DNA of 64,000 bases from assembly GCA_004010535.1 (NCBI GenBank), contig RQYE01000007.1, positions 62,001 to 126,000 of the forward strand. The letters run 5' to 3'. Every line of letters begins with the position of its first letter. Positions within the stretch are counted from its first letter, which is position 1. Below are positions 4,229 to 31,565 of this stretch, piece by piece. The notes under the pieces were generated by a model that ran no database searches, was not told the origin of the DNA, and worked only from the letters and a program-made list of their open reading frames with translations. The stretch comes from Coriobacteriales bacterium OH1046. GTDB lineage: Bacteria > Actinomycetota > Coriobacteriia > Coriobacteriales > Atopobiaceae. Made by a program: the position numbers and the translations under genes.

Positions 4229-4579
4229 TTATAAGACGACCGCTTCGTGGAATTTTCTCCCGGCTAGTCCGAAATAAGCCGGGTCGAGGATCATGTCCTC
4301 GGCCCTGCCGTGGTAGAGATTGCTGTCAGCTATGAGGCTCCCCATCTCGTCATCGATGTCGAGCAGGGAGTCGGCCTCGCCGTACTCCCAGCCCTCCTCG
4401 ATGGGGTCGAGTCCCTGGATCGTGAGGGCGACGAAATCCTGGGCCGCCAGCTCGGGGGCCGTGAGCCCGTCATGCTCCATCATGTAGTAGTGTGCTGCCC
4501 ACACCGTCTCCCCGTCTACCTTGTGGTAGACGTTGATGCCACCGGCATTGTCCTCGTATACCGTGGTCCTCGTGCTCAT
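4229..4579 (-). CDS. hypothetical phage accessory protein (116 aa)
   Basis: The acidic 116-residue product starts MSTRTTVYEDNAGGINVYH and has no signal peptide or membrane segment. The ATG at 4579 is chosen because GGAGG lies 8 bases upstream. An in-frame ATG 11 codons earlier lies in the leader, which is duplicated exactly at the right end of the prophage. A strong sigma-70 promoter with an operator-like inverted repeat lies just upstream, so the gene is probably expressed in the lysogen or early, under the same control as the AcrVA2-like operon. No family was recognised. Confidence 0.6.
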   Translation of the reverse strand: MSTRTTVYEDNAGGINVYHKVDGETVWAAHYYMMEHDGLTAPELAAQDFVALTIQGLDPIEEGWEYGEADSLLDIDDEMGSLIADSNLYHGRAEDMILDPAYFGLAGRKFHEAVVL

Positions 4580-4687
4580 CTCGTGCTCCCTCCGATCCGG
4601 CTCGGGCCCCATGCCCTCGCTCTATCTCTAGTATACCCAGACTTGATGTAAAGTCAATCGGAAATAGAGATTAAATTAACCACACAT
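4574..4687 (-). promoter_or_regulatory. promoter/operator/leader, left copy of a 114-bp exact repeat
   Basis: Read on the minus strand this holds TTGACT (4657-4652), a 16-base spacer and TATACT (4635-4630), followed by a leader with GGAGG and the first two codons of the gene. An inverted repeat GACTT-N6-AAGTC (4640-4655) fills the spacer, and CTCTAT/ATAGAG arms flank the promoter, both looking like repressor sites. The same 114 bases occur in the same orientation at 30957-31070. Promoter strength and operator function are inferred from sequence. Confidence 0.75.
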
Positions 4688-27585: not shown

Positions 27586-27714
27586 ATGGAGAGGGCCGAT
27601 GAGCATCTCGACCCCATGGAGATCAGCCGCCTAGAGCAGATGGCGAAAGCTGCGGAGATCATGGACGAGCACGACAAGGAGGATGAGGATGGGGACGAGA
27701 GCGCAAGTGCTTGA
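27586..27714 (+). CDS. tiny acidic protein in the lysis cassette (42 aa)
   Basis: ATG 27586 opens a 42-residue ORF (MERADEHLDPMEISRLEQMA...) rich in Glu and Asp, starting one base after the holin stop and overlapping the endolysin start. The upstream AAGGAGG within the holin 3' end would serve it. It has no membrane segment. It could be a translation coupler for endolysin or a holin regulator; no homologue was recognised. Confidence 0.45.
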   Translation: MERADEHLDPMEISRLEQMAKAAEIMDEHDKEDEDGDESASA

Positions 27715-28342
27715 GCTTGCCAGATCGCAGGTCGGCGCGGTCGGCGGCGAGAGGTACTGGCGCGAGGCGTTCGGGTGGTCGGGCAACGGCTACCCATTCT
27801 GCGCCGTCGGGCTGAGCTGGCTCTTCGAGAAGACCGGCACCGATTGCCCCTACTTCCCGTCCACGGTCGCCTTCGACAGGCGCGACCTCGGGAGCATAGG
27901 GGGCCGCTGGGTCGGAGCGTGGGACCTGCAGCCCGGCGATCCCGTCTCGTTCGACTGGGACGGCGACGGCGGCGGCGACCACGTGGGCATCGTGGAGACC
28001 CGGTACGGCGCGGGGAGCTACCGCACAGTAGAATTCAACGTCTCCGGGAGGGTCGACTACCGCTACAGGAGCGCATCGGACGGCATATTGGGCGGCATCC
28101 GCCCCAGATACGAGGAGGAAGAAGTGACGGATTCGGACATCCAGAAGATCGCGGAGAAGGTCTGGGCCTACAGGATCGACTACAGGAACGGCATCGACGA
28201 TTCGCCGCACACCGCCAACGCGCGGAGCAGGCTCGGCTACATCGACTACATCACGCATACGATCCTGCGCAAGCTCGACGAGATCATCTCGCTGCTCAAG
28301 GGCGAGCCCGAGCGCGCGAAGGCACCTGAGGACGCCTCGTAG
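27689..28342 (+). CDS. CHAP-domain endolysin
   Basis: The 217-residue protein opens with a CHAP amidase/peptidase domain. The catalytic Cys38 is in YPFCAVGLSWLF and His98 in GDHVGIVETR, with DLQPGDPVSFDWDGDG between. The C-terminal 75 residues (VTDSDIQKIAEKVWAYRIDY and following) are helical and may bind the wall or substrate. There is no signal peptide, so export depends on the holin. The ATG at 27689 is 6 bases after AAGGAGG, whereas the ATG at 27683 abuts it. Confidence 0.85.
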   Translation: MGTRAQVLELARSQVGAVGGERYWREAFGWSGNGYPFCAVGLSWLFEKTGTDCPYFPSTVAFDRRDLGSIGGRWVGAWDLQPGDPVSFDWDGDGGGDHVGIVETRYGAGSYRTVEFNVSGRVDYRYRSASDGILGGIRPRYEEEEVTDSDIQKIAEKVWAYRIDYRNGIDDSPHTANARSRLGYIDYITHTILRKLDEIISLLKGEPERAKAPEDAS

Positions 28343-28367
28343 GGAGGCGAGGAACCGACCTGCCATG

Positions 28368-28393
28368 GCCCCCTCCTCCGGGAGGGGGCTTTT
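28368..28393 (+). terminator. Rho-independent terminator ending the late operon
   Basis: GCCCCCTCC (28368-28376), loop TCCG and GGAGGGGGC are followed by TTTT. It lies 25 bases after the endolysin stop and before the convergent accessory operon. Confidence 0.85.
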
Positions 28394-28396
28394 CCT

Positions 28397-29425
28397 CTAC
28401 CGCCCCGCGCGGTGGACGACGGTGCTGCCGTCCTCCCTCCCGCCGGGGTTGACGAGGACCGGGGGCTGCCAATGGGGCACGAGGCGGCGCTCCGGGGACC
28501 CGACCGCGCCGTGCCAGTGGCAGTGCCAGTGGCCCGCCCTCACGTGGGCCGAGACGGTGCGGCCCGAGGGCCCGCTCCCCCCGCCGCCCCCGTAGCGGAT
28601 CCTCGCGGCGCGCAGCGCGGCCCCGGCCCTGGCCCCCACGGAGTGGATGGTCGAGGGGGAGAGCCGCCTCGTGCCCCCGCCGCCGCCCGAGGGCCGGTAG
28701 ACCACCTCCCGGTCGGCCCCGTCGGAGACGAGGTAGAGCAGCAGGGAGAGGGCGTCGCCCGCCGTCTCCCTGGCCCGCGAGCGCGCCGAGGCGGCGTCGA
28801 AGCCGCCCGGCGGCCCCCCGAGCCGCCCGTACAGGGCGAGGTCGGCGTCCACGAGGGAGTCCGCGGCCCCCCCGACCGTCCCGCACGCGAGGTCGAGGGA
28901 GAGCCGCACGCAGGGCCGGCCCTCGCGCACGAGGAAGACGAGCAGCACGTCGCGCACGCCCCCGCCCGCGTCGCGCTGCGTGTCGCGCCAGGCGAAGAAT
29001 CCCGGGTGGGAGAAGGCCCGCCCGGAGGGCGACCAGCTCGAGATCGGGGCCTGCACGTACTGGATGGGGTAGGGGAGCCTCGCGAGCGCGTCGAGCGGCA
29101 TGGAGTCGGGGGAGTCCGACGCCGCGAGCGCCGCCGCGAGGTCCGGATCGAAGTCGAAGACGTGGCGGCACGAGCGCCACCTCGACCAGAGGGCGACGTC
29201 CTCGGGCACTGCGAGGGAGATGTCCTCCGACTGGGCGCGCAGCAGCTCGGCGGTGCCCATCTTGGACGGCGCGGGGAGGCCGCGCCGCCCCATGAGCCAG
29301 ACCGCCGCCGCAGCGGCCTCCTCGCCGGACGCGGCGTAGGTGCCCGCCCGGAGGTCGGCGAGCTCGGGGTTGGCCGCGAGGAAGGCGTCGATCCATCGGT
29401 CGGCGGAGGTCATACGGCGCTTCAC
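28397..29425 (-). CDS. AcrVA2-like anti-CRISPR family protein
   Basis: The 342-residue product shows the AcrVA2 plan. It has an N-terminal helical part (ADRWIDAFLAANPELADL), a mid VFDFDPDLAAAL and LPYPIQYVQAPI region, GFFAWRDTQ, ALSLLLYLVSDGAD near residue 235, IHSVGARAGAALR, and the characteristic C-terminus HVRAGHWHCHWHG followed by HWQPPVLVNPGG. Moraxella AcrVA2 ends with the corresponding GHWHGYWxG and WQPxxFVN pattern and blocks Cas12a production. Distant family members occur in many prophages without known targets, so the activity here is unproven. GTG 29425 follows GGAGG. It is last in a leftward operon after an RHH protein. Confidence 0.7.
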   Translation of the reverse strand: MKRRMTSADRWIDAFLAANPELADLRAGTYAASGEEAAAAAVWLMGRRGLPAPSKMGTAELLRAQSEDISLAVPEDVALWSRWRSCRHVFDFDPDLAAALAASDSPDSMPLDALARLPYPIQYVQAPISSWSPSGRAFSHPGFFAWRDTQRDAGGGVRDVLLVFLVREGRPCVRLSLDLACGTVGGAADSLVDADLALYGRLGGPPGGFDAASARSRARETAGDALSLLLYLVSDGADREVVYRPSGGGGGTRRLSPSTIHSVGARAGAALRAARIRYGGGGGSGPSGRTVSAHVRAGHWHCHWHGAVGSPERRLVPHWQPPVLVNPGGREDGSTVVHRAGR

Positions 29426-29435
29426 ACGAATCCTC

Positions 29436-29888
29436 CTATCTCGCGCGGTCGCCCGTGTAGATGCGGATCGCCTCGTCCACGGCGGCCCCCATGGTGGTCC
29501 CGTCGCCCGCCGCCCGGTCCTTGATGGCGCGGTAGGCGGCCTCCGAGACCGTGACGGTCATCACGCGGCTGTCGCCCTCGCCGGGAAGCCCCCACTCGGC
29601 CTCGTACTCCTCGACCTCCATGTGTCCCTCCGCCCACTCGCGGGCCTGCTCGGGAGAGAGGGGCACGATGCGCTCGCCCGACTGCGACCCCCTCCCGTAC
29701 GGCTCCGCATAGGGGCTGAGGGGCCCTCCCCACCCGTGGAGGAAGTACTCGCCCGTGCGCTTGCGGTACAGGGACTCCTCGTAGTAGTGGAAGTCGCCCC
29801 TGTCGTGCATGCCGACCGGGCTGGTCGGCTCGCACACCATGTGGGCCGTCTCGGTGTCGAAAAGCCTCCCATCGATTATCTTCCTCAT
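29436..29888 (-). CDS. two-domain protein with C-terminal ribbon-helix-helix
   Basis: The 150-residue protein opens MRKIIDGRLFDTETAHMVCE, continues ESLYRKRTGEYFLHGWGGPL, then PLSPEQAREWAEGHMEVEEY, a module common in Gram-positive mobile elements. Its last 45 residues (RVMTVTVSEAAYRAIKDRAA, GTTMGAAVDEAIRIY) look like an Arc/CopG-type ribbon-helix-helix DNA-binding domain. It ends 10 bases before the AcrVA2-like start. By analogy with Aca regulators next to anti-CRISPR genes it could repress this operon, but that is inference. Confidence 0.6.
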   Translation of the reverse strand: MRKIIDGRLFDTETAHMVCEPTSPVGMHDRGDFHYYEESLYRKRTGEYFLHGWGGPLSPYAEPYGRGSQSGERIVPLSPEQAREWAEGHMEVEEYEAEWGLPGEGDSRVMTVTVSEAAYRAIKDRAAGDGTTMGAAVDEAIRIYTGDRAR

Positions 29889-29906
29889 GCTTCCTCGCTC
29901 CTCTCC

Positions 29907-30143
29907 CTATCGGATCTCCACTTCGTAGTTCACGCCATCGACGATCACGAATCGCGCGGCGACGGTGCCCGGCCTCGCGTTGCGCCATATGATGCGCTCG
30001 TGCACCGTGCGCTCGTAGTCCACGCCGTCGATGGTGACGGTGCCGCGCTCCTTGGTGGGAAGGTCGATCGGCTTGCACGAACACTGCGGTGCCAGCTTAT
30101 GATTGCCGGGGATGATCCTGCCCGTGGCGATGATCTCCGCCAT
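29907..30143 (-). CDS. hypothetical accessory protein (78 aa)
   Basis: The 78-residue product starts MAEIIATGRIIPGNHKLAPQ and ends FVIVDGVNYEVEIR, with repeated V-T-I-D-G-V-D/N-Y strand motifs, so it is probably a small beta-rich domain. The CSC pair near residue 21 is notable. It lies three bases after the preceding gene in the leftward operon. Function is unknown; small proteins in such loci are candidates for host-defence inhibitors. Confidence 0.5.
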   Translation of the reverse strand: MAEIIATGRIIPGNHKLAPQCSCKPIDLPTKERGTVTIDGVDYERTVHERIIWRNARPGTVAARFVIVDGVNYEVEIR

Positions 30144-30146
30144 TTC

Positions 30147-30650
30147 TCAGCTCTCCCTTCCGCGCTCGGCGAGCAGGCTGTGCTCGCGCCATGACTCGTC
30201 TATGAGGTCCTGCAGATCCTCCGACACATGGCTCCTGATGTAGAGCGCCAGGAGCCTGCCGGTCCGCTGGGCCGCCTCGTAGCCCCCTTCGGCATCGCCC
30301 GCCGCGATGCCCTCGACGTACCTCTCGGCCATCATGGAGGCGAGGAGGCCCCGGAAGCTGCCTACGACCTTCCCCGCCAGCTTGTCGCCCTCCTCGCAGC
30401 CGAGCCTCAGATGCCGGGACTCGTCCCGTGCCGAGGTCCCGAAGAACCAGTGCCACGCCAGCTCCCGTGCCTGCTCGAGGGCATGCTCCCTGAAGGTCAT
30501 GCCGAGGTAGCTGCTGTAACTGTCCTCGGCACGCTCCACCATCTCAGGGATCCCCCCGAGCATGTCGTCCTCCGTGACGACATGCTCGAATCCCCTCTCA
30601 TCATCGGGGATGAAGGGGGAGTAGGAGCCGATCCTTACCTCGTCGTCCAT
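30147..30650 (-). CDS. hypothetical accessory protein (167 aa)
   Basis: The 167-residue acidic protein (MDDEVRIGSYSPFIPDDERG...) is mostly helical after residue 35, with AWHWFFG near residue 66. It has no membrane segment, signal peptide or recognised motif. It is second in the leftward accessory operon, after a strong UUCG-loop hairpin. Function is unknown. Confidence 0.5.
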   Translation of the reverse strand: MDDEVRIGSYSPFIPDDERGFEHVVTEDDMLGGIPEMVERAEDSYSSYLGMTFREHALEQARELAWHWFFGTSARDESRHLRLGCEEGDKLAGKVVGSFRGLLASMMAERYVEGIAAGDAEGGYEAAQRTGRLLALYIRSHVSEDLQDLIDESWREHSLLAERGRES

Positions 30651-30712
30651 GCCGTCCTCCTTTCCCGTGGGGCCGCATCAGCCGCCCCATCCCTCTTCCG
30701 AGCTGGACTTCC

Positions 30713-30732
30713 GGCCCCTCCGAAGAGGGGCC
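30713..30732 (-). terminator. intercistronic hairpin with UUCG tetraloop
   Basis: On the minus strand GGCCCCTC-TTCG-GAGGGGCC forms a perfect 8-bp stem closed by a C(UUCG)G tetraloop, the most stable loop class. No U-tract follows, so it may only attenuate transcription or shield the upstream message, separating the first gene from the rest of the operon. Confidence 0.55.
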
Positions 30733-30737
30733 TGCCG

Positions 30738-30962
30738 CTAACGGTTCTCACAATAGTCGACGAATCCCCTGATGAAGTCCTCTCTGGGCTTCCCGGCAAG
30801 GCCGGTGCCATTCGCACCCAGCCCGTCCGCCTTTCGGGCGGCGACGGCCTCGAAACCGCCCTGCTGCCTACGGGAGCAGTCATATGCCAGATAGGCATAG
30901 GCATGGCTCCGTCCGAGCCTTGTGAAGCTCGGCTTCATCGGGAAGATCGACTTCCGGCTCAT
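30738..30962 (-). CDS. hypothetical accessory protein, first gene of the AcrVA2-like operon
   Basis: The 74-residue basic protein starts MSRKSIFPMKPSFTRLGRSH and ends PREDFIRGFVDYCENR. The ATG at 30962 is 8 bases from GGAGG within the duplicated leader. It shares only its first two codons with the left gene under the same leader (4579). It has no recognised motif. First position behind a strong repressible promoter, with an AcrVA2-like gene downstream, makes it a candidate anti-defence protein or regulator. Confidence 0.5.
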   Translation of the reverse strand: MSRKSIFPMKPSFTRLGRSHAYAYLAYDCSRRQQGGFEAVAARKADGLGANGTGLAGKPREDFIRGFVDYCENR

Positions 30963-31070
30963 CTCGTGCTCCCTCCGATCCGGCTCGGGCCCCATGCCCT
31001 CGCTCTATCTCTAGTATACCCAGACTTGATGTAAAGTCAATCGGAAATAGAGATTAAATTAACCACACAT
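30957..31070 (-). promoter_or_regulatory. promoter/operator/leader, right copy of the 114-bp exact repeat
   Basis: On the minus strand TTGACT (31040-31035) and TATACT (31018-31013) are separated by 16 bases holding the GACTT-N6-AAGTC inverted repeat (31023-31038). The leader and start codon are base-for-base the same as 4574-4687. It drives the leftward accessory operon. Confidence 0.75.
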
Positions 31071-31565
31071 AATCTTCACAATCCTGCAAGATGCCGCTGG
31101 ATGGCTAGGCCGCCCGTGGGAATCTGATCAGGATGCAGCCGCCGCATGCCGCGACCATGAGGCCGGTGATTCGGGGAGATTTCACCTCGGCCCACCAAAT
31201 CCGAAAGATAATAGGGTACGATGATTTCGTTATCCATTTCCGCTGCATGGTGTCTGCCCACGAAATACCTGCCATTATGGTATGAAACGCACTTGTAATA
31301 CTATTTATTGAATATGCATAGTTAACTCATGCATATTAATAGGTATTTCTGTGCAGAATATGTGAATTCATGAATTTTATAAGCTCATAAAGCAAATCAA
31401 GCAGGATTTTTCATCACAAATATGCAAAGAGCAGGTACCCTTATGAGCATAAGCCATTTAGTTGGTCAATTAACAACTCTTGGTTTTTCCTGTAGCAGTA
31501 CAGGGTGAGGGAAGCCGCGCTTTCGAAACAGTCGAGACGCGGGAACGGGAAGAGGGGGAATACCA
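31071..31565. other. prophage-host junction region without a supported gene
   Basis: This 495-base stretch has no ORF I would accept; short minus-strand frames (for example 31105-31275) lack ribosome binding sites. Composition falls sharply to AT-rich from about 31200 to 31480. It contains nested inverted repeats at 31262-31347 and an AGTTG-N9-CAACT repeat at 31460-31478. The right attachment site is probably here, and the promoter for the peptide transporter operon must also be here; neither could be placed precisely. Confidence 0.5.
31262..31347. repeat. nested inverted repeats, candidate att/operator structure
   Basis: Outer arms GAAATACCT (31262-31270) and AGGTATTTC (31339-31347) and inner arms AATATGCAT (31311-31319) and ATGCATATT (31329-31337) are both perfect 9-bp inverted repeats sharing one axis near 31305-31324. 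They lie in the AT-rich gap between the last prophage gene and the first host gene, so integrase arm/core binding or an operator is possible. No left end is available for comparison. Confidence 0.5.

Follow-up and report, generated by a model that had tools for sequence, protein, structure and literature searches.

An AcrVA2-family gene in an accessory operon with a duplicated promoter module at the edge of a Coriobacteriales prophage

Locus and identity of the AcrVA2-family gene

The window analyzed in this study is a stretch of 64,000 nucleotides from Coriobacteriales bacterium OH1046 (contig RQYE01000007.1, positions 62,001 to 126,000). It contains one end of a prophage of approximately 43.6 kb integrated in a tRNA-Lys gene, and a five-gene leftward operon lies just inside the right attachment site (attR) at this end. 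All five open reading frames were on the minus strand with good ribosome sites, in agreement with the initial annotation of a leftward operon at the prophage end. The last gene (28397 to 29425, minus strand; GTG start, AGGAGG ribosome site) encodes a 342-amino-acid (aa) protein that belongs to phrog_6160 and is referred to here as the AcrVA2-family gene. The G+C content of this gene was 77.2%, whereas the late phage genes have 66-67% and the host flank has 64%. This difference suggests a separate origin of the AcrVA2-family gene.

The initial annotation had regarded this gene as an AcrVA2-like anti-CRISPR (Acr) candidate because of its C-terminal pattern and an in-order match along its length. 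The pattern GHWHCHWHG ... HWQPPVLVNPGG was indeed present, and a profile of six Coriobacteriales proteins aligned positions 70-340 with residues 58-320 of AcrVA2 (PDB 7ci1) with an E value of 1.1e-21. When phmmer was run against all PDB chains, AcrVA2 (7ci1) was the single match of the 342-aa protein (E 4.5e-8). The family phrog_6160, a PHROG with unassigned function, matched residues 78-327 (E 1.1e-19), and nothing significant was obtained from Pfam, NCBIfam, or PADLOC. Weak profile matches to RelB-like proteins (0.042) and a type I-F anti-CRISPR (0.23), and a match of a long relative to ribosomal protein L22 (0.037-0.051), were at chance level and were discarded.

A template-free AlphaFold2 model of the 342-aa protein was built on 57 family members (predicted local distance difference test score [pLDDT], 81.8; predicted template modeling score [pTM], 0.83). 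A Foldseek search of the PDB with this model retrieved 7ci1/7ci2 (E 5e-12), and the structures superimposed with a Z score of 19.6 and a root-mean-square deviation of 3.6-4.1 over 259-279 residues, spanning residues 4-326. No PDB entry other than AcrVA2 exceeded Z 3.9, a level at which more distant kin are still possible. Apart from 7ci1/7ci2 there was no strong structural match in the PDB, and the AcrVA2 call is therefore correct for family and fold. Conservation was highest at residues 289-328 (2.60 bits per column), followed by 81-120 (2.45), and lowest at 41-80 (0.81). P118, H294, R296, and H299 were invariant in the 57 proteins, and W300, H301, G306, and W319 were nearly so. The conserved C-terminal element HxRxxHWH ... 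W is thus present in the window protein.

The window protein resembles AcrVA2 of Moraxella bovoculi (7ci1, 7ci2; AcrVA2.1) in fold over residues 4-326, in length, and in the C-terminal HxRxGHWHxxWxG...W.P..VN element, and both proteins are borne by mobile elements. On the other hand, the two are about 20-23% identical and fall in separate clades, and the window gene has a much higher G+C content, different neighbors, and a host family without Cas12a. Taken together, these results provide good support for assigning the 342-aa protein to the AcrVA2 fold family, in which it represents a new clade and a new setting.

Distribution and phylogeny of the family

No match was found in phages and plasmids by tblastn with the window protein alone; relatives in these elements were reached only with the profile and a Collinsella relative as queries. 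With profile searches, the AcrVA2 fold family was found to span at least eleven phyla. In a quick tree of 67 members, in which many forks are weak and the deep order is unsure, the Moraxellaceae proteins formed a clade on a stem of 2.45 with 100% support, and the window protein lay outside it. This clade includes L078, which is AcrVA2 or a very close ortholog (E 9.4e-127 to 7ci1). The window protein grouped with a viral contig (L023), a Collinsella aerofaciens protein (L011), and L014 with a support of 93. Both the window protein and its relatives fall under phrog_6160, a PHROG without an assigned function, of which the window protein represents a Coriobacteriales branch.

No Cas12a detected in the host family or in sampled carriers

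Cas12a was sought in relatives of the host, as the initial annotation had proposed. It was detected in none of the 140 genomes of the host family, the Atopobiaceae. The same model found full-length Cas12a in 2 of the 297 genomes of the order, so the search itself works. Cas12a was also absent from all 50 sampled genomes that carry an AcrVA2-family gene, which represent many phyla, with the caveats that some of these assemblies are incomplete and that phages move between hosts. No genome of the order combined a strong phrog_6160 match with Cas12a. A Cas1 match was obtained in 30 of the 50 carriers, many of them weak, and no CRISPR adaptation gene was detected in the other 20.

The protein could nevertheless be a functional Cas12a (type V-A) inhibitor that has been kept through passage via the rare Cas12a-bearing Coriobacteriales. 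Its fold and conserved C-terminal element are those of AcrVA2, the two Cas12a-positive genomes show that such hosts exist in the order, and AcrVA2 acts on diverse Cas12a proteins through a conserved N-terminal motif (PMC13131331). However, the order's genomes with strong phrog_6160 matches are never among its Cas12a genomes, Cas12a is missing from the 140 family genomes and the 50 carriers, and the protein lies outside the long-stemmed Moraxellaceae clade; we consider this explanation unlikely. Because of the same absence of Cas12a from the host, its family, and the carriers, together with the position of the protein outside the Moraxellaceae clade, the type V target implied by the initial annotation is not supported, and inhibition of Cas12a is an unlikely function in this host.

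Family members beside host defense genes

Several relatives occur in settings other than a prophage operon. The 532-709-aa proteins L008-L010 and L287-L289 have an AcrVA2-like C-terminal half (profile-profile alignment of 225 columns, E 2.2e-7). These large relatives (e.g., L287:8098-9969, L288:4507-6390, and L010:88-1686) share only the central and C-terminal part with the window protein, including the C-terminal element, and differ from it by an extra N-terminal region of approximately 360 residues. Restriction-type genes, recognized by eye and not by profile, were found near L287 and L288. In L123, from the same order (G063:C1, 1168-10114), the family gene is part of an operon with Wadjet-type genes: it overlaps a gene for a 708-aa HEC-07/NsnC-like protein, and JetA, JetB, and JetC then follow. 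A JetD-like gene was not recognized in this stretch. In view of the Wadjet-type operon of L123 and the restriction-type genes near the two longer relatives, hosts may use the fold as well.

These settings bear on a further possibility, in which the window protein is not an anti-defense factor and instead reduces the level of a phage or host protein in the service of lysogeny, superinfection exclusion, or competition between elements. The family member beside the Wadjet genes (L123) and the C-terminal halves of larger proteins near restriction-type genes (L287, L288) would fit a defensive or regulatory use, and family members also occur in hosts in which no CRISPR adaptation gene was detected. 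However, the lineage whose function has been tested is anti-CRISPR, and the window gene is phage-borne, lies in a promoter-driven accessory operon, and is located at the attachment-site edge. We regard a role of this kind as improbable, on a par with the inhibition of Cas12a.

Upstream genes and the ribbon-helix-helix protein

Four genes precede the AcrVA2-family gene on the minus strand. The first (30738 to 30962) encodes a 74-aa protein, or 85 aa when read from an upstream ATG at 30995, and the duplicated promoter module described below includes its start codon. It is followed by genes for a 167-aa protein (30147 to 30650), of which no relatives were found in phages or IMG/VR, a 78-aa protein (29907 to 30143) with no significant family match, and a 150-aa protein (29436 to 29888). 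The initial annotation had described the first three as lacking a recognized family and had proposed them as inhibitors of host defense. Library searches gave no usable family match for any of the three, which agrees with the former statement, and the latter is therefore a suggestion from gene position.

The 150-aa protein consists of an N-terminal domain (residues 1-105) and a C-terminal ribbon-helix-helix (RHH) domain (residues 106-150). In a model with a pLDDT of 87.6, the latter matched the RHH domains of CopG, Arc, PutA, AmrZ, and others (Z of approximately 6 over 45 residues), as the initial annotation had predicted. Residues 1-105 belong to a family that is widespread in phages and prophages of many hosts. 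Two records of bajarodino virus (PQ006131.1 and PQ006167.1), which at 5.5 kb are far below the size of tailed phages, contain relatives of the N-terminal protein of this RHH family.

The RHH protein had also been proposed as an Aca-like (anti-CRISPR-associated) repressor. As with Aca regulators, a DNA-binding domain is encoded directly upstream in the same operon, and from this position an Aca-like role is possible. The protein probably binds DNA and may regulate the operon. As a candidate operator, only a 7-bp inverted repeat (ATCTCTA-34-TAGAGAT) was found across the promoter. Unlike Aca regulators, it has a large extra N-terminal domain and its family is widespread without any AcrVA2-like gene. 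A conserved linkage was not found: no AcrVA2-like gene was present in approximately 79 RHH-family loci and no RHH-family gene in 157 AcrVA2-family loci, in a comparison that, among Acr families, covered the AcrVA2-like genes. A helix-turn-helix motif was recognizable in approximately 10% of neighbors across the AcrVA2 family, and thus adjacency of the Aca type is no pronounced tendency of this family.

Duplicated promoter module and prophage boundary

The operon is preceded by a 114-bp module at 30957 to 31070 on the minus strand, comprising a σ70-type promoter (TTGACT-16-TATACT), a leader, a ribosome site, and the first two codons. The −35 and −10 sequences, TTGACT and TATACT, were located at 31040-31035 and 31018-31013, respectively, and the end of the repeat coincides with the end coordinate of the initial annotation, 31070. 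A second copy at 4574 to 4687 (minus strand), 26.4 kb away in the same prophage, was 100% identical and drives the gene of a 116-aa protein (4229 to 4579, minus strand). The genes downstream of the two copies were unrelated. No further copies were found in the 140 genomes of the host family, and the promoter core was found in no other viral contigs. Such exact identity across 26 kb points to a recent copying event or to gene conversion of the module. In L117, another Atopobiaceae genome, a relative of the 116-aa protein is encoded beside an RHH-family gene; therefore, the two operons appear to be interchangeable accessory units with shared control. An attachment-site duplication was also considered for the 114-bp repeat and rejected, since both copies are inside the prophage and the end on the integrase side is a tRNA-Lys gene with a core of 10 bp that differs from the repeat.

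This core, CGGCCCACCA (31188 to 31197), is the probable attR core and is identical to the 3' end of the tRNA-Lys gene at the other prophage end (G000:C16:49595-49604). With this recurrence, attR lies 117 bp past the promoter module of the operon, and the prophage measures about 43.6 kb. By a simple estimate, such a 10-bp repeat would arise by chance with a probability of approximately 0.03, and its position makes an att core likely. At the integrase-side end, a large serine recombinase gene is directly beside the tRNA-Lys gene (L108:7529-7604). Two congeners (G002 and G004) have the same tRNA-Lys 3' end followed by a different sequence, with oppA downstream. An integrase, the core at both ends, and an empty site in two congeners thus characterize an integrated prophage. 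On its inner side, the operon faces a phage endolysin (CHAP) gene, the last rightward late gene (27683 to 28342, plus strand), and a terminator-like hairpin (28367 to 28390, plus strand) separates this gene from the AcrVA2-family gene. No Rfam families were found in the window.

A host type I-C spacer matching the AcrVA2-family gene

The host has a type I-C CRISPR system (Cas5c, Cas8c, Cas7, Cas4, Cas1c, and Cas2) with an array of 14 repeats near a contig end. One spacer of this array, CTCGTGCGCGAGGGCGGCCTGCCCTGCGTGCGG (L096:17147-17179; G000:C19:93146-93178), matched positions 28904 to 28933 (minus strand) of the AcrVA2-family gene. Of the 30 aligned bases, 29 were identical, with one 3-nt in-frame gap and a 15-nt perfect seed, and TTC was found directly 5' of the matched stretch (28936-28934). 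TTC is the usual protospacer adjacent motif (PAM) of type I-C systems. The spacer encodes LVREGGLPCVR, whereas the gene encodes LVREGRPCVR. In a control set of 4000 33-mers, no score on the gene was as high as 20, and a single 33-mer attained the 24.5 of the spacer when the whole window was searched. The remaining host spacers gave no comparable match, and no host spacer matched the prophage in full. A degenerate pattern for the variant LVREGGLPCVR was found in no viral contig. Short high-identity matches to the operon in other Atopobiaceae genomes were checked as possible CRISPR arrays, and none proved to be one.

It is therefore probable that this lineage was infected by a phage with a close variant of the AcrVA2-family gene and that the type I-C system took the spacer from it. 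That the AcrVA2-family protein inhibits the type I-C system is very unlikely in our judgment: the spacer with its PAM and perfect seed indicates that this system and phages carrying the gene meet in the lineage, and a different AcrVA protein, AcrVA3.1, acts on V-A as well as I-C systems (PMC7556299), but a spacer in the gene is a sign of exposure and not proof of inhibition, the prophage may be spared by the 3-nt difference itself, and 20 of the 50 carriers have no Cas1 match.

Discussion

AcrVA2 is described as recognizing the nascent N-terminus of Cas12a (LSKT) and triggering the decay of its mRNA by machinery that is unknown, and it is the first reported case of prokaryotic inhibition by translation-dependent mRNA decay (PMC13131331). 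According to conference reports, it lowers the mRNA of tagged enzymes and thereby allows control of Cas9 and Cas12f (PMC12908700), and AcrVA2.1 partly impairs Cas12a2 (PMC9811890). By analogy, we tentatively favor, with a confidence a little short of even, the interpretation that the window gene encodes an AcrVA2-fold protein, probably nascent-chain-directed, that down-regulates a host protein other than Cas12a. The gene would be expressed from the prophage by its own σ70-type promoter as the last member of an accessory (moron-like) operon. The variable N-terminal and central part would recognize a nascent host polypeptide, and the conserved C-terminal HxRxxHWH...W element would serve a shared step. 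The result would be lowered expression of a non-Cas12a host protein, most probably one that harms the phage. The data fit a scheme in which the common step is conserved and recognition changes, since the C-terminal element and residues 81-120 are conserved, residues 41-80 are the least conserved, and the large relatives share only the central and C-terminal part. This mechanism is plausible; for the window protein, nascent-chain binding, mRNA decay, and the nature of the target are all inferred.

Several points weigh against this interpretation. Direct evidence of mRNA decay and nascent-chain binding is confined to the AcrVA2/AcrVA2.1 lineage, and the mechanism is carried over by homology at about 20-25% identity. 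In addition, the family members beside or within host defense genes (L123, L287, and L288) do not fix the biological side on which the family acts, and Cas12a-bearing hosts do exist in the order, although they are rare.

In its widest form, the idea of a non-Cas12a silencer would make AcrVA2 one specialized lineage of pan-bacterial nascent-chain-directed silencers, in which recognition is variable, the conserved C-terminal element causes mRNA loss, targets differ, and both mobile elements and hosts are users; the window gene would then be an Actinomycete phage member with a host target other than Cas12a. We consider this generalization speculative and rather doubtful.

A homology survey of RefSeq in 2019 found AcrVA2 homologs in two phyla and no neighboring Aca gene (PMC6739104), and the AcrVA2 fold family now extends to at least eleven phyla. 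Since none of the 50 sampled carriers has Cas12a, caution is needed in labeling AcrVA2 homologs as Cas12a inhibitors. If the mechanism is shared, the family would constitute a large natural set of protein-specific, translation-coupled silencers, and this would be relevant both to target finding by AcrVA2 and to the application of AcrVA2 as a programmable silencer.

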